Part shown: piece after piece, positions 34,454 to 40,793 of the stretch
How the letters are laid out: each line of letters starts with the position of its first letter
Numbering within the stretch: the first letter of the stretch is position 1
NCBI GenBank assembly: GCA_031178105.1
Contig: JAPSJX010000008.1
Span: forward strand, 1-43,266
DNA from: Agrococcus sp.
Lineage (GTDB): Bacteria; Actinomycetota; Actinomycetes; Actinomycetales; Microbacteriaceae
DNA length: 43,266 nt
Direction of reading: 5' to 3'
Notes under the pieces: generated by a model
Databases searched by the model: none
What the model saw: the letters and a program-made list of their open reading frames with translations, nothing else
Told to the model about the DNA's origin: nothing
Position numbers and translations under genes: made by a program

Positions 34454-37018
34454 CTAGCAGCCAGGGTCGCCCCCGCTGGCGTTCGTGCCGACCACGACCG
34501 AGATCGGGTCGCCGGGCGCGCCGGCGGTGCCGGCCGCGGGGTTCTGCGCGAGCACCAGGCAGACGTTCGCGTCGCCGTGGTCCTGCCAGGTCACCTGGAT
34601 GTTCGCCGGGTCGAAGCCGGCGCCCTGCACGGCGCTCCTCGCGTCCGCGAGCGGCTGGGCCACGACATCGGGCCACGCCTGCGCGCCCTCGTCGGCCGGG
34701 GGAGCGGTCTCCTCCGCCTGGCCCCCGGCAGCGAGCGCGCCGTTCGACGGGTAGATGATGATCGGCGTCGCCGTCGTCACGAGCGAGCCGGCGCCGGGCG
34801 CCGTGTACTCGGCGATGCCCTCCGCCTGCGCCCCGTCGATCGGGTTCGCGACCTGCACCGTGAAGCCCTGCGCCTCGAGCGCGGCCTGCGCGTCGGCGAC
34901 GGGCTGGCCGGCGACGTTCGGCAGCTCGGTGGCGCTGCCGCGCAGCGTGTCGGCGTCGGGGGCCAGGAACTCGCCGCCGGGGTAGCGCGCGATCGCCTCC
35001 TCCATCGCGCCGCGGAACAGCGTCGAACGGATGTTCCAGCGAGGCTGCAGCGAGTAGTTGCCGACGATGTTGCCGACCCACACCGAGGTCGCGACGGTCG
35101 GGCTCGCGCCGTTGACCCAGGTCTGCACGACCCCGTTCGACGTGCCGGTCTTCGAGATGACCGGGGTGGAGCCTGCCGGGTTGTTGAGCGGGTTGCGCTC
35201 GGTGACGGTCTCGAGCACGAGCTGGAGCACGGAGGCGACGTCCGCGCTGATGGCCTGCTGGCACTGCTGCGCCGGCGGCTGCACCTCCGTGCCGTCGCGG
35301 GCGACGATCCGGTCGATGGCGATCGGCTCGCAGTGGATGCCGCCGTTGGCGATCGTCGCGAACGCCTCCGCCATGCCCATGGGCGTCACGTTCGAGCCCG
35401 AGCCGATGACGGCGGGCGCGAAGATCTCCCAGTCGCCGCCGTTCGCGGGCGTCGTGCCCATCCGTGCCGCGGTGTCGTGGATGTCGCACAGGTCCATCTC
35501 GCTCGCCATGCGGGCGATGCCGGTGTTCACCGAGTTCACCATGATCTCGGTGGGCGTCATCCGGGCGTACTCCTTGCCCTCGTTGTTCTGCGGGTCCCAC
35601 TCCTCGGAGACGAGGCCCGTGCACTCCGCCGTGAAGGCGCCCTGGGGCCACTTCTCACGGGTGGCGTCGAGCTGCTCGTTCACCGAGTGCCCGTCGAGCA
35701 CCCACTGCGCGAGCGTGAAGATCTTGAACCCCGAGCCGGGCTGGAAGCCGCCCGACCTGCCGTGCGCGTAGTCGGCGTTGAAGTTGACGCTCGTCGCGGT
35801 GGGCGGCGCATCCTCGGTGGGGAAGTAGTCCTTGTTCTGCACCATGGTCAGGATGCGCCCGGTGCCGACCTCGAGCTGCGTCACCGCTGCGCCCGACTGC
35901 CAGCGGGTCTCGTCGTTCGGCACCTGCGCGTCGACCATCGCCTGCACGGCGTCGTTGAGGTTCAGGTCGATCGACGTGTAGATCTGGTAGCCGCCCTGGA
36001 AGAGCGCCGCGGAGTTGTCCTCGGGCGTGGCGCCCAGGATGTGATGGCCGTCGACCTGGTCGGTCGCGAGCACCCGCTGCACGTAGTCGCAGAAGAAGCG
36101 AGCCGAGTCGTAGCCCGCGATGCAGCCGTTGTTCGGAGGCTGGATGTTGACGAAGGCCTCGTCGACGGGGATGGCGAGCGCCTCGTCGCGCTGCTCCGCG
36201 GTGATGTAGCCCTCGGACGCCATCGCGCTGATGATGAAGTCGCGACGCTCCTGGTTGCGCGCGAAGTTGTCGGCGCTGAAGAGGTTGCGGGTCGACGGGT
36301 TCTGCACCGTCGCGATGAGCGCCGCCGCCTCGCCGATCGAGAGCTCGGCCGCCGGCTTGCCGAAGATGCGCTGCGCGCCGGCCTCGATGCCGTAGACGTT
36401 GCCGCCGAAGTTCGCGATGTTGAGGTAGGCGAGCACGATCTCGTTCTTCGTGTACCGCTGCTCGAGCCCGATCGCGAGCCGCATCTCTGCGAGCTTGCGC
36501 TGGTAGCTCGCCTCGTACTGCTGCTCGTACGTCTCCTGGTCGCCGCGGATGAACGCATCCATCGCGATCTGCTGGCGCACGAGCTGCATCGTGAGCGTCG
36601 AGGCGCCCGAGTCGCCGCCGAAGCCGAGCTGCGAGAGGCCGGCGCGCACGACCGACGGGGCGTCGACGCCGCCGTGCGTGTAGAAGCGGCGGTCCTCGCC
36701 GGCGATGAGCGCCTCGACCGCGGTGCGCGGCACCTGCTGCCACTGCAGCACCTGGCGGTCCTGGGCGTAGAACGACGCGATCTCGACGGGCTGGCCGTCG
36801 CGGACGCCGTAGATGCGGTTGCGCTCGGCCTGCTCGGTGATCCGCGCGTACGAGGGCAGGCTCTCGAAGACGTCGAGGCCGCTGTTCGCCGTGGTCGAGG
36901 CGACGGCGAGGGCAGGCGTCAGCGTCGCGGAGACCAGGATCCCGGCGATCGCGCTGAACCCGATGAGCCCGAGGAGCGAGCCCAGCAGGCTTCCGGGCTT
37001 GTGTCTTGTGGCGGCCAT
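34454..37018 (-). CDS. Class A penicillin-binding protein with PASTA domains
   Basis: Bifunctional peptidoglycan synthase of 854 residues. It has a short cytoplasmic start, one membrane helix (about 12-40), a GT51 glycosyltransferase domain with catalytic Glu108 (GEDRRFYTHGGVD) and STLTMQLVRQ, then a transpeptidase domain with Ser429 in PGSGFK, SVN in MVNSVNTGIARM and KTGTSNG. Two PASTA repeats end the protein (from about residue 710: LPNVAGQPVADAQAALEAQG, and WPDVVAQPLADARSAVQGAG), as in actinobacterial PonA-type enzymes under Ser/Thr kinase control. The promoter appears leaderless (TACCCT eight bases before the ATG). The metallophosphoesterase is downstream. Confidence 0.95.
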   Translation of the reverse strand: MAATRHKPGSLLGSLLGLIGFSAIAGILVSATLTPALAVASTTANSGLDVFESLPSYARITEQAERNRIYGVRDGQPVEIASFYAQDRQVLQWQQVPRTAVEALIAGEDRRFYTHGGVDAPSVVRAGLSQLGFGGDSGASTLTMQLVRQQIAMDAFIRGDQETYEQQYEASYQRKLAEMRLAIGLEQRYTKNEIVLAYLNIANFGGNVYGIEAGAQRIFGKPAAELSIGEAAALIATVQNPSTRNLFSADNFARNQERRDFIISAMASEGYITAEQRDEALAIPVDEAFVNIQPPNNGCIAGYDSARFFCDYVQRVLATDQVDGHHILGATPEDNSAALFQGGYQIYTSIDLNLNDAVQAMVDAQVPNDETRWQSGAAVTQLEVGTGRILTMVQNKDYFPTEDAPPTATSVNFNADYAHGRSGGFQPGSGFKIFTLAQWVLDGHSVNEQLDATREKWPQGAFTAECTGLVSEEWDPQNNEGKEYARMTPTEIMVNSVNTGIARMASEMDLCDIHDTAARMGTTPANGGDWEIFAPAVIGSGSNVTPMGMAEAFATIANGGIHCEPIAIDRIVARDGTEVQPPAQQCQQAISADVASVLQLVLETVTERNPLNNPAGSTPVISKTGTSNGVVQTWVNGASPTVATSVWVGNIVGNYSLQPRWNIRSTLFRGAMEEAIARYPGGEFLAPDADTLRGSATELPNVAGQPVADAQAALEAQGFTVQVANPIDGAQAEGIAEYTAPGAGSLVTTATPIIIYPSNGALAAGGQAEETAPPADEGAQAWPDVVAQPLADARSAVQGAGFDPANIQVTWQDHGDANVCLVLAQNPAAGTAGAPGDPISVVVGTNASGGDPGC

Positions 37019-37026
37019 AGCATACG

Positions 37027-37032
37027 AGGGTA
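37027..37032 (-). promoter_or_regulatory. -10 box TACCCT, leaderless start of the penicillin-binding protein gene
   Basis: On the minus strand TACCCT is followed by eight bases and the ATG at 37018, with no ribosome site. Confidence 0.5.
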
Positions 37033-37044
37033 CGGGACCAACCT

Positions 37045-37068
37045 ATGAGCACAGAGGAAGCACACTGA
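37045..37068 (+). CDS. Seven-residue leader peptide (possible)
   Basis: ATG at 37045 opens a frame reading MSTEEAH and stopping at TGA 37066-37068, whose last base is the A of the next gene's ATG. Its codons contain the purine-rich GAGGAAG that serves as ribosome site for that gene. It could be a coupling leader or an accident of the Shine-Dalgarno region. Confidence 0.3.
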   Translation: MSTEEAH

Positions 37069-37235
37069 TGGCGAAGACGACCTGGGAGTACGCGACCACG
37101 CCGCTCCTCATCCACCGAGAGACGGCCATCCTCAACACCTGGGGCGGCGACGGCTGGGAGCTCGTCCACGTCGCGAACGGCCCCGAGGGCGGCCTCGTCG
37201 CCTTCCTGAAGCGCCCGCTGGAGGCATCCGCATGA
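37068..37235 (+). CDS. Small DUF4177-like protein
   Basis: A 55-residue cytoplasmic protein with the pattern WEYATTPLL, LNTWGGDGWELVHV and GLVAFLKRPL, resembling DUF4177 proteins, which commonly end in a Lys/Arg tail after a hydrophobic strand. AGAGGAAG (37053-37060) supports the ATG. The stop overlaps the RidA-family start (ATGA), and the pair is conserved in style in related actinobacteria. Function unknown. Confidence 0.8.
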   Translation: MAKTTWEYATTPLLIHRETAILNTWGGDGWELVHVANGPEGGLVAFLKRPLEASA

Positions 37236-37690
37236 GCATCGCGCAGCGGATGGAGGAGCTCGGCTTCACCCTGCCGGCGGTCGTGCCGCCCGTCGCCTCC
37301 TACGTGCCCGCCGTCTCGACCGGCCGGCTCGTGTTCACCTCGGGCCAGCTGCCGATGGTCGACGGGGCGATGCCGCGCACCGGCAAGGTCGGCGCGGAGG
37401 TCTCGGCCGACGAGGCGACCGCCGACGCCCGGCAGTGCGCGCTCAACGCGCTCGCCGCGATCGAGGCCGAGATCGGCTCGCTCGACCGCATCACCCGCAT
37501 CGTCAAGGTCGTCGGGTTCGTCGCCTCGGCCGAGGGCTTCCACGGCCAGCCGGGCGTGATCAACGGGGCGAGCAACCTGCTCGGCGAGATCTTCGGCGAT
37601 GCCGGCCGGCACGCGCGCAGCGCCGTCGGCGTCGCAGAGCTGCCGCTCGGCGCCCCCGTCGAGGTCGAGGTCATCGCCGAGTTCGCCTAG
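37232..37690 (+). CDS. RidA family protein (YjgF/YER057c/UK114)
   Basis: A 152-residue member of the RidA superfamily, whose archetype removes reactive enamine/imine intermediates from PLP enzymes. Visible are VSTGRLVFTSGQLPMVDG, CALNALAAIEAEIGSLDRI, VKVVGFVASAEGF and the C-terminal segment with the conserved Arg (ARSAVGVAELPLGAPVEVEVIAEFA is split by the active-site loop). It belongs to the longer subgroup of about 150 residues. It is coupled to the DUF4177-like gene. Its stop codon shares CTAG with the stop of the opposite-strand DUF559 gene. Confidence 0.92.
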   Translation: MSIAQRMEELGFTLPAVVPPVASYVPAVSTGRLVFTSGQLPMVDGAMPRTGKVGAEVSADEATADARQCALNALAAIEAEIGSLDRITRIVKVVGFVASAEGFHGQPGVINGASNLLGEIFGDAGRHARSAVGVAELPLGAPVEVEVIAEFA

Positions 37691-38673
37691 CCCTCCCACC
37701 ACCGAGCTTCCCCGAACTCCGGGATTCCGGCGAAGAATCCCGCGATCCGGGGAAGCTCGGCGTCGGGGCGGTGGCGTGCTCGGATGCGATCGGCGATCGG
37801 GGCGAGGTCCTGGGCGGTCCTGGTCGGCGTCGCGACGGTGAGCCGGTACACCTCGAGGCCGAGCCGCTGGACGACGTTGTAGCGCTCGAGGTCGCTGAGC
37901 CACTGCGCGCGGTCGGTGCGATGCTGGTCGCCCTCCACCTCGATCAGCACGCGCGATCGCCAGAACGCGACGTCGGGGGCCAGCGTCACCCCCGCGAGCA
38001 CGACCGGCACGTTGCACCACGGCTCCGGCAGCTCGAGCGCCTCGAGCCCCAGCCGCATGATCGACTCGGGCCGGGACCACGCGCGCGGATGCATCGCGTG
38101 CGCAGCCGCGAGCAGGCGACGGTGACCCCGCTGGCCGACGTGCGCGGACACCGCGACGCGGAGCTCATCGCGGGACGCGAGCGGCGCGCGCTCCTCGATG
38201 ATCGAATCGCCGAGCGCGACGAGGTCCTCGAAGCCGAGGTAGTCGGCGCCGTCGACGAACGCCTGGGCCGGGCTCGAGATCCGGAGGCCGTCGTGCAGGC
38301 GGATCTGCCCGGGATCGAGCGTGCGCTGCCGTCCCCGGATGCCCGTGCCTCGCGGTGCGTGCTGCGGGCTCGGCACCGTCACATCGATGCGGTCGAGCGC
38401 TCGCAGGCGCCGGGGCAGCGGGCGCTCGTACAGCGCGGCGGCGGTCGCGTGGCTGACCCACGCGCTGCCATCCAGCGATCGCAGGGCCGCGCTCGCGCGT
38501 CGGTGCAGATCGATCGGCGCCGACGCATCCACGTACACGTCACGAGCGAGACGCACGGCGCGGTGGCCGCGCAGGCGCTCCGCCCCGACGCCCGCCCGGC
38601 GCGCGTCCGCGCTCGTGAACAGGTCGCCGCGCAGCGACTCGGGCAGCTTCCAGGCGTCCTCCACGAGACGCAT
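37687..38673 (-). CDS. DUF559-domain protein with AbiEi-like N-terminus
   Basis: A 328-residue protein. Residues 1-170 resemble the AbiEi/transcriptional-antitoxin type (a winged-helix-like start with TSADARRAGVG, then AWVSHATAAALYERPLP). Residues 195-300 form a Vsr-like PD-(D/E)XK fold of the DUF559 family: PDVAFWRSRVLIEVEGDQH with Asp234, Glu245, Glu247 and His251, then DLERYNVVQRLGLEVYRLT. A nuclease role is plausible but unproven. Residues about 305-325 are encoded by a palindromic repeat (37702-37760). A related palindrome lies 91 bases upstream of the start. The gene sits between acsA and ridA, neither of which is related to it, suggesting insertion as a unit. Confidence 0.82.
   Translation of the reverse strand: MRLVEDAWKLPESLRGDLFTSADARRAGVGAERLRGHRAVRLARDVYVDASAPIDLHRRASAALRSLDGSAWVSHATAAALYERPLPRRLRALDRIDVTVPSPQHAPRGTGIRGRQRTLDPGQIRLHDGLRISSPAQAFVDGADYLGFEDLVALGDSIIEERAPLASRDELRVAVSAHVGQRGHRRLLAAAHAMHPRAWSRPESIMRLGLEALELPEPWCNVPVVLAGVTLAPDVAFWRSRVLIEVEGDQHRTDRAQWLSDLERYNVVQRLGLEVYRLTVATPTRTAQDLAPIADRIRARHRPDAELPRIAGFFAGIPEFGEARWWEG
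37702..37760. repeat. REP-like palindrome, copy A (inside the DUF559 gene end)
   Basis: An imperfect hairpin: 13 outer pairs (37702-37714 with 37748-37760), an internal loop, then eight inner pairs (37720-37727 with 37735-37742) around an eight-base loop CCGGCGAA. Its left arm shares the pattern CCGARCTTCCCCGAACTSCG with copy B. It starts 12 bases after the ridA stop and also encodes the tail of the DUF559 protein. Confidence 0.85.
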
Positions 38674-38763
38674 GGTGCACCCCGATCGCCCCGCGCGCGG
38701 ACCGGAGCCGGTCGCGCTGAGGACAGCCGCCCCGCTCCGCCGCGGCGCCTCCGCCCGCCGCTA

Positions 38764-38828
38764 CCGCCGAACTTCCCCGAACTGCGGGTTCTCGAGGCGA
38801 GAACCCGCAGTTCGGGGAAGTTCGGCGG
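38764..38828. repeat. REP-like palindrome, copy B (between acsA and the DUF559 gene)
   Basis: A perfect 31-base-pair inverted repeat (38764-38794 with 38798-38828) with a three-base AGG loop, clearly related to copy A. It begins 21 bases past the acsA stop, so it may also end acsA transcription. Apart from this hairpin nothing else is recognisable in the 176-base gap 38674-38849. Confidence 0.9.
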
Positions 38829-38849
38829 AGGAGGAGCGAGCGGAGGGGA

Positions 38850-40793
38850 TCAGCGGAGCTGGGAGCGGATCGCGTCGACGACCGTCTGGTCGGCGAGCGT
38901 CGTGGTGTCGCCCAGGTCGCGGCCCTCGGCGAGGTCGCGGAGCAGGCGGCGCATGATCTTGCCCGAGCGGGTCTTCGGCAGGTCCGGCACGATGAACACC
39001 TGCCGGGGGCGCGCGATCGCGCCGATCTCGGCCGCGACGTGCTTGCGCAGCACCGCCTCCGACTCCTCGACCGTCAGCTCGTCGGCGAACCGCTGCTTGA
39101 GGATCACGAACGCCACCACCGCCTGGCCGGTGGTCTCGTCGCTCGCGCCGACCACGGCGGCCTCGGCGGTCGACTCGTGGGCGACGAGCGACGACTCGAT
39201 CTCGGCGGTCGAGAGCCGGTGCCCCGACACGTTCATGACGTCGTCGACGCGGCCGAGCAGCCAGATCTCGCCGTCGTCGTCCTTGCGCGCGCCATCACCG
39301 GCGAAGTAGCGGTCGCCGAACTTCTGCCAGTACGTCTCGCGGTAGCGGTCGTCGTCGCCCCAGATGGTGCGCAGCATCGACGGCCACGGGCTCGTGACCA
39401 CCAGCAGCCCGCCGTCGCCGTCGCCGACCGGCTCGCCCTGCTCGTCGACGACGTCGATGTCGATGCCCGGGATCGGCACCTGGGCGCTGCCGGGCTTGAG
39501 CGTCGTCACCGAGGCGAGGCCCGAGATCATGATCGCGCCGGTCTCGGTCTGCCACCACGTGTCCATGACGGGGGTCGTGCCCCCGCCGATGACCTCGCGG
39601 TACCACATCCACGCCTCCGGGTTGATGGGCTCGCCCACCGTGCCCAGCACGCGCAGGCTCGACAGGTCGCTCGACTGCGTGTGCTGGCGGCCGAGCTTCA
39701 TGAACGTGCGGATGGCCGTGGGGGCCGTGTAGAAGACGGTGACGCCGTAGCGCTCGATGATCTGCCACGGCCGCTCGGGCGTCGGGGTGTCGAAGGTGCC
39801 CTCGTGCATGACCTGCGTCGTGCCGTTCGCCATCGGGCCGTAGACGATGTAGCTGTGGCCGGTCACCCACCCGATGTCGGCGGTGCACCAGTAGACGTCC
39901 GACTCGGGCTTGAGGTCGAAGACGTGCCGGTGCGTGAACGCGGTCTGGGTGAGGTAGCCGGCGCTCGTGTGCAGGATGCCCTTCGGCTTCCCGGTGGTGC
40001 CGGACGTGTAGAGGATGAAGAGCGGATGCTCGGCGGGGAAGGCCTCCGCCTCGTGCTCGGCGTCGGCGGCGGCCATCGCGTCGTGGTACCAGACGTCGCG
40101 GCCGGGCGTCCACTCGATCTCGTTCTCGCCGCGGCGCACGACGAGCACGTTCGTGACCCCGTGGCCGGGCTCGCGGAGCGCCTCGTCGACCGTCGGCTTG
40201 AGCGGGAAGACCTTGCCCTTGCGCCACGCGCCGTCGGTGGTGATGACGAGCGTCGCGCCGGCGTCGTCGATGCGGCCTCGCAGGTTGGAGGGGCTGAAGC
40301 CGCCGAAGACGGCGGTGTGCACGGCGCCGATGCGCGCGCAGGCGAGCATCGCCGCGACGGCCTCCGGGAGCATCGGCAGGTAGATCGCGACGCGGTCGCC
40401 CGCCCGCACGCCGAGCGAGGTCAGCACGTTCGCGAGCCGCTTCACCTCGGCGGTCATGTCGGCGTACGTGAGCGTGCGGCGGTCGCCGGGCTCGCCCTCC
40501 CAGCGGAGGGCGACGCGGTCGCCGTGCCCGGCCTCGACGTGGCGGTCGAGGCAGTTCACGGCGACGTTCAAGGTGCCGTCGTGGAACCACCGGGCGTGCG
40601 GCGGCTCCCAGTCGAGCACCTCGGTGAACGGCGTCGCCCACTGCAGCTCGCGGGCCTGCTCGGCCCAGAAGCCGAGCCGGTCCTCGCGCGCCCGCTCGTA
40701 GAGGGCGGCGGAGGTCGCGGATGCACCGGCCAGCGCCTCCGGCGGCGCGAAGCGGCGCGTCTCGTTCAGCAGGTGGTCGATGCGGTCAGACAC
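38850..40793 (-). CDS. acsA: Acetyl-CoA synthetase (acetate-CoA ligase)
   Basis: Activates acetate to acetyl-CoA with ATP, giving AMP and pyrophosphate. At 647 residues it is of normal length. Motifs include the P-loop YTSGTTGKPKG, the acetate-pocket segment MDTWWQTETG, GDRYFAGDGARKDDDG and the hinge LLGRVDDVMNVSGHRLSTAEIES. The C-terminal LPKTRSGKIMRRLLR holds the catalytic lysine that is acetylated in many species. The GTG start has GAAGGAG upstream. It runs divergently from the Tad locus and is followed by palindrome B. Confidence 0.97.
   Translation of the reverse strand: MSDRIDHLLNETRRFAPPEALAGASATSAALYERAREDRLGFWAEQARELQWATPFTEVLDWEPPHARWFHDGTLNVAVNCLDRHVEAGHGDRVALRWEGEPGDRRTLTYADMTAEVKRLANVLTSLGVRAGDRVAIYLPMLPEAVAAMLACARIGAVHTAVFGGFSPSNLRGRIDDAGATLVITTDGAWRKGKVFPLKPTVDEALREPGHGVTNVLVVRRGENEIEWTPGRDVWYHDAMAAADAEHEAEAFPAEHPLFILYTSGTTGKPKGILHTSAGYLTQTAFTHRHVFDLKPESDVYWCTADIGWVTGHSYIVYGPMANGTTQVMHEGTFDTPTPERPWQIIERYGVTVFYTAPTAIRTFMKLGRQHTQSSDLSSLRVLGTVGEPINPEAWMWYREVIGGGTTPVMDTWWQTETGAIMISGLASVTTLKPGSAQVPIPGIDIDVVDEQGEPVGDGDGGLLVVTSPWPSMLRTIWGDDDRYRETYWQKFGDRYFAGDGARKDDDGEIWLLGRVDDVMNVSGHRLSTAEIESSLVAHESTAEAAVVGASDETTGQAVVAFVILKQRFADELTVEESEAVLRKHVAAEIGAIARPRQVFIVPDLPKTRSGKIMRRLLRDLAEGRDLGDTTTLADQTVVDAIRSQLR

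Follow-up and report, generated by a model that had tools for sequence, protein, structure and literature searches.

The arrangement described here is most readily compared with the REPtrons of Pseudomonas, Stenotrophomonas and E. coli, which, in the accessible portions of the reports on them (PMC2817692, PMC3686654), share with it a gene bracketed by cognate palindromes with further copies in intergenic DNA, a high copy number together with the cognate gene, and gene lineages that have different palindromes. The REPtron enzyme is RAYT, an HuH tyrosine transposase, whereas the present gene encodes a Vsr-like nuclease of the DUF559/MTES_1575 type with an AbiEi-like region; furthermore, the GTAG-type tetranucleotide head is missing at the ends of 38 aligned 61-nt copies of the palindrome family of our locus, and these palindromes measure ~60 nt as opposed to the 20–40 bp given for REPs in the accessible text of PMC3733652. 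That source also describes the CGTC-tagged REPs, which are likewise dispersed palindromes reported without a dedicated transposase, although their sequences are others and its accessible text reports no link to DUF559. On the enzyme side, the catalytic-domain fold of our protein resembles the EDxHD homing endonuclease I-Bth0305I (3r3p; TM 0.61 by target length), and the accessible part of PMC9403480 assigns a cyanobacterial DUF559 gene to this family; here, however, the gene was not found within an intron or intein, has lineage-specific flanking palindromes and includes the AbiEi-like region. This N-terminal region matches the PADLOC AbiEi profiles and hence recalls AbiE type IV systems, but a nuclease domain is fused to it in place of an adjoining AbiEii gene: no AbiEii toxin gene was found beside the gene, whose neighbours are of the ridA and acsA types. 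The modification-dependent restriction enzymes PvuRts1I and AbaSI share the Vsr-like nuclease domain, but the nuclease part alone aligns with them and the genes analysed here are bracketed by palindromes. In the open-access literature, we found no paper that connects palindromes, whether flanking or dispersed, with DUF559 or MTES_1575.

The window, i.e. the whole stretch of 43,266 nucleotides that was analysed, is contig C69 of an Agrococcus assembly of 1.94 Mb rated 65% complete. The association of DUF559-type genes with palindromes has good support; that the nuclease binds, cuts and spreads the palindromes is our inference. We consider it probable that the locus in the window is a single unit of a selfish, REP-like system resting on an unrelated nuclease, the gene of which is bracketed by cognate palindromes, with others scattered at gene 3' ends.

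The gene and its palindromes in the window

Table 1. Features of the DUF559/MTES_1575-type locus (positions within the window).
Feature	Position	Strand	Remarks
DUF559/MTES_1575-type gene	37687..38673	-	328 aa; ORF; AbiEi-like N-terminus and Vsr-like nuclease domain
AbiEi-like N-terminal region, residues 18–145	38239..38622	-	PADLOC AbiEi profiles
Conserved nuclease core, residues 200–264	37882..38076	-	S200, E203, R207, D234, E245, H251, D261
Palindrome copy A	37698..37762	.	Within the 3' end of the DUF559/MTES_1575-type gene; G016 (L089) has a copy at the equivalent place
Palindrome copy B	38764..38828	.	21 bp from the acsA stop, 5' of the DUF559/MTES_1575-type gene
ridA-type gene	37232..37690	+	Pfam L-PSP/YjgF; convergent with the DUF559/MTES_1575-type gene
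acsA-type gene	38850..40793	-	Pfam ACAS_N and AMP-binding; neighbour of the DUF559/MTES_1575-type gene

A preliminary description of this DNA had recognised a perfect 31-pair hairpin with a three-base loop and a degenerate relative of it at the two ends of a single gene between ridA and acsA, and recomputation gave the same picture: copy B is a perfect inverted repeat of 31+31 nt with a 3-nt loop (arms 38764–38794 and 38798–38828), the arms of copy A (37695–37727 and 37735–37767) are imperfect with 79% complementarity, the two copies (65 nt each) are 74% alike and both neighbouring genes fit their Pfam profiles. Copy A falls within the final ~25 codons of the DUF559-like gene. The further claim that this copy has become coding sequence for the protein tail holds for two of six orthologs, in which the palindrome lies inside the reading frame (G000, the genome of the window, and G016), but not for the other four (G001, G008, G002 and G019), where it follows the stop codon. 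As RNA, copy B is predicted to fold with -68.5 kcal/mol (z -14.45) and copy A with -59.6 kcal/mol (z -7.95), in both cases with 0/200 shuffles as good. A known RNA family was rejected for the palindromes, with no Rfam family reaching its gathering score in 37000–39500.

The PADLOC AbiEi profiles match the window protein with an E-value of 1.1e-9, while Pfam returns MTES_1575 (E 0.0037) and DUF559 (E 0.11), both short of their curated cut-offs; among 30 diverse members, 23 match MTES_1575, 11 match DUF559 and one or two match an AbiEi model at E <= 0.01. MTES_1575 is described as a Vsr-fold REase in the accessible part of PMC3710099. The acidic and histidine site expected of an EDxHD/Vsr-like nuclease fold is conserved, with six of the seven core residues (S200, E203, R207, E245, H251 and D261) invariant across 30 diverse proteins of the genus and D234 present in at least 90%; the structural E-values, on the other hand, are weak. 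The predicted structure (pLDDT 92.1) has PvuRts1I as its best Foldseek match (E 0.015), with none at or below 0.001; I-Bth0305I is matched at E 0.13 and the E-value for 4oq2 is weak as well, whilst profile matches to PvuRts1I and 3hrl reach 0.0017–0.0018. The structure and profile matches to known nucleases are suggestive, not strong. The protein consists of an AbiEi-like N-terminus joined to a Vsr-like nuclease domain.

Such a composition allows for a regulatory reading, in which the AbiEi-like domain would bind the palindromes as operators or self-marks, either regulating its own gene or restraining a defence or restriction nuclease, with the dispersed copies acting as extra sites. We hold this to be quite improbable: the AbiEi-like N-terminus, the resemblance to the modification-dependent PvuRts1I and the PADLOC mREase_II profile found in 8/30 members all favour it, yet an operator need not sit at both ends of a gene nor behind unrelated 3' ends, and the ridA- and acsA-type neighbours in the window are neither toxin nor methylase.

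Bracketing of DUF559-type genes within and beyond the genus

An ortholog of the window gene (at least 51% identity) was detected in six of 24 genomes of the genus, located between acsA and ridA in four (G000, G016, G001 and G008) and elsewhere in two (G002 and G019); as the latter two have common neighbours, the orthologs occupy two genomic locations. The other 18 genomes, 3 of which are less than 90% complete, are without a detected ortholog. The acsA-DUF559-ridA order is thus not general in the genus; its being ancestral in the whole family had been named as a possible refutation of the original suggestion. All six orthologs are bracketed by CGARCTTCCC...GGGAAGYTCG palindromes: one on each side in G000, G016 and G008, two on each side in G001 and G019, and three plus two in G002, as counted with a loose pattern from which chance matches inside genes were excluded by eye. 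A purely local duplication beside ridA was rejected, orthologs at the other locus being bracketed too.

Searching the genus with the window protein (E <= 1e-5) returned 84 matches, of which 81 were fetched (the other three being two from G006 and one from G019) and 79 had enough flank to be scored by the best local alignment of the 5' flank against the 3' flank. At the genus cut of at least 35, 59/79 DUF559-like genes are bracketed compared to 4/157 control genes taken from the window and from the DUF559 and ridA loci; the remaining 20 genes of the genus miss the cut, and four of these score less than 25. In 49/79 genes the two aligned stretches each form a hairpin (score >= 12), leaving 30 without a two-sided hairpin, and examples of the bracketing palindromes are GATGGAAAAGTCCCGAC (L140), GATTGGTCACGAA (L145), CGCAGAGTGCCGGAACTCTGCG (L164) and TGAGGTTTTCGGCCC (L169). 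When the proteins are grouped into clades at 60% identity, the median flank score is at least 30 in 17/20; a single-linkage clustering of the palindrome families, which lumped 39 genes together, was set aside. The REP-DUF559 association suspected in the preliminary description is thereby upheld, with all six orthologs bracketed and other lineages bracketed by palindromes of their own, and flanking of the gene on both sides by cognate palindromes is a feature shared with REPtrons. In a subset of loci, among them L178, L179, L180, L185, L188, L189 and L192, both sides carry ~20-bp tandem arrays, for example of the GAGTGGCGCCTCCCGC type, in inverted orientation, which are not hairpins. In the DUF559 flank at L033 (G000:C73), near the contig end, there is an extended low-complexity stretch rich in C and G, possibly an assembly artefact.

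The Y1 (RAYT-type) transposase profile PF01797 was found in 0/24 genomes of the genus, a few of which are incomplete, with a control search positive in 5/14. RAYT as the mover is hence disfavoured in this genus and, because the defining transposase was not found, we do not file the system as a REPtron. That a RAYT or some other transposase moves the palindromes as classical REPs or MITEs, with DUF559 a mere neighbour, we regard as very improbable indeed: REPs are associated with RAYTs elsewhere, according to the accessible portions of PMC2817692 and PMC3686654, but against this stand both the missing Y1 profile and the far greater frequency of bracketing at DUF559-like genes than at controls.

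In order to compare palindromes between genes, the 5' flank of one gene was aligned with the 3' flank of another (cut >= 30). Similarity across flanks was seen for 69% of pairs with more than 85% protein identity (13 pairs), 84% at 70–85%, 29% at 60–70% and 2–7% below 60%; palindrome similarity tracks protein similarity (Mantel 0.213; 0/500 permutations as high). For the wider tests, gene positions were taken from tblastn and 29 Micrococcales and 27 phylum loci were given, with one further Micrococcales gene contained in the phylum sample, and L269 and L338 were dropped as too near an edge. A score of at least 30 was reached by 21/28 genes from other Micrococcales versus 2/55 shifted-flank comparisons, and by 12/26 genes of the phylum sample versus 1/52 shifted controls, with 14/26 below 30; four named loci outside the genus gave 1/4 bracketed at 30 and 3/4 at a cut of 25. 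The family profile itself occurs in 52/59 order-level and 20/60 phylum-level genomes, with the genome of the window counted in both. We advance, as a proposal whose chances we put a little short of even, that actinobacterial DUF559/MTES_1575 genes form the core of a phylum-wide class of selfish palindrome systems. Here it would be a Vsr-like nuclease, and no transposase, that spreads its cognate palindromes and rewrites them over and over: it would cut them and repair would copy them, so that sites are replaced in place and the gene is carried along between them.

Dispersed copies and their dependence on the cognate gene

The arm RCTTCCCCGAACTSC occurs 30 times in the genome of the window when one mismatch is allowed, compared to 0 for the backward control, by which a chance origin of the copies is rejected. 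In this genome, 14 copies fit a strict two-arm pattern, and a looser scan of the fetched stretches gives 18, the two of the window included. Across the 24 genomes, the strict pattern is found in G000 (14), G001 (9), G008 (7), G016 (5), G019 (2), G013 (1) and G022 (1) and is absent from the remaining 17: at least two strict copies are thus present in 5/6 ortholog carriers versus 0/18 non-carriers. The exception is G002, which has the ortholog but 0 strict copies, though degenerate palindromes bracket its gene. The exact window palindrome occurs in 2/299 Microbacteriaceae genomes, both Agrococcus (the genus contributes only 6/299); it is the exact palindrome, and not the rule linking gene and palindrome, that is restricted to the genus in this sample.

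Two further families were counted. The second, TGAGGNTTTCGGCCC, which flanks the DUF559 genes of G021, G009 and G023 on both sides, has 67, 25 and 24 matches in these three genomes and 0–3 in the other 21; the third, CAGAGAAGTGGGGCACCTG, has 23 and 9 matches in G040 and G058 and 0–1 in 38 other genomes, hand-chosen from the order-level sample. As the carriers are related, often sister, species, these counts represent few independent events. The arm search and copy counts proposed with the original suggestion have thus shown, for the three families examined, that multiple copies track the cognate gene, as dispersed palindromes do in REPtrons, with G002 as the exception; spread without any link to DUF559 genes, which would have told against the suggestion, was not seen, the only non-carriers with a strict palindrome being G013 and G022 with a single copy each. 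A further DUF559-like gene came out of the profile searches only, in the genome of the window (G000:C39:12439-13302), ~1.7 kb from a palindrome of the window family (C39:10731-10779).

Among 38 palindromes, 85.1% of cells are paired and 59 cells are doubly changed, compared to 11–26 with slid and a mean of 38.7 with shuffled alignments. Pairs changed on both sides number 11, which is no higher than in shuffles (338/500 as high), and for this reason covariation lends the palindromic pairing partial support.

With the bracketing copies included, 47 copies of the window family were placed in the loci examined: 17 lie in 3'/5' junctions, 15 in 3'/3', 13 in 5'/3' and 2 in a CDS tail. The 3' end of a gene adjoins 45 of the 47, within 30 bp for 37 of these 45, and none lies between divergent genes, compared to 87/278 background junctions. 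This placement, together with the very stable hairpins and the occupation of the same junctions in several species, is what would be expected if the palindromes were kept by selection as 3'-end elements, either terminators or mRNA stabilisers, and multiplied by other means, with DUF559 cassettes inserting by recombination between them and the nuclease a passenger. We consider such an origin unlikely, as it leaves unexplained both the lineage-own palindromes on the two sides of the gene and the restriction of multiple dispersed copies, in the three counted families, to genomes that have the cognate gene; moreover, no T-run intrinsic terminator (a hairpin followed by a T run) was found in 37000–39300.

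Junction comparisons and a candidate mechanism

Between G000 and G001, the genes neighbouring the acsA-ridA locus have a dS of 0.23–0.29 and 94–98% identity, while the DUF559 gene has a dS of 0.73 and 62%; between G000 and G008 the gene shows 57% and a dS of 0.83 (neighbours: dS 0.26–0.53), and G000 and G016 are mildly discordant (80%, dS 0.59; neighbours 82–90%, dS 0.33–0.45). At the second location, the G002 and G019 genes are 71% identical versus 79–92% for the neighbours. G021, G009 and G023 also have their DUF559 gene at a common place: that of G021 is 61–64% identical to the others, compared to 92–95% for the median gene pair, but 7/93 (G021–G009) and 6/84 gene pairs of G021 with the other two are even more divergent, and G009–G023 is unremarkable. 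This divergence at a shared site may reflect replacement or fast evolution. The acsA-ridA junction is occupied by second-family palindromes in G021, G023 and G009, near-perfect but different in each of the three, and by yet other palindromes in other species, which fits rewriting in place. Among the junctions compared in G021, G009 and G023, neither a clean empty site nor a target duplication was found, because these junctions mostly hold palindromes in all three genomes.

Returning to the REP-like selfish system that we favour for the window, the simplest account would have the Vsr-like domain cut under the guidance of the AbiEi-like region, with other copies then serving as templates for repair. 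The AbiEi-like N-terminal domain would bind the conserved outer arms of the cognate palindromes, and the Vsr-like domain would nick or cut there; repair from other copies could then convert or seed sites with the palindrome and might at times also carry the gene lying between two palindromes, as in homing. Copies would persist mainly behind stop codons, where a hairpin may be a harmless or even useful 3' end. If this is true, a large protein family with many copies, still named in Pfam as one of unknown function, is given a role, an enzyme unrelated to RAYT can underlie repeat systems of the REP type, and the palindromic repeats of genomes lacking RAYTs gain a candidate mover. Recognition specificity can be tested directly on the many gene-palindrome pairs that occur naturally.

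Several junctions show further particularities. At the acsA-ridA junction of G022 and G014 (L114 and L115), an unrelated family is represented by a tandem pair of palindromes, GTCGAGTAG...TATCGAGAC; within the genus, this site may be a hotspot for palindromes. In G021 (C1:2476357-2476463; L289), a tandem palindrome pair occupies the position at which an ~800-bp ORF lies in G023 and G009, and deletion or replacement may have accompanied the gain of the palindromes. The tandem pairs of G021 (L283 and L289) have a 61-bp period and, judged by eye, pair two inner-stem subtypes, one of which resembles the flanks of the resident DUF559 gene and the other those of G009 and G023.
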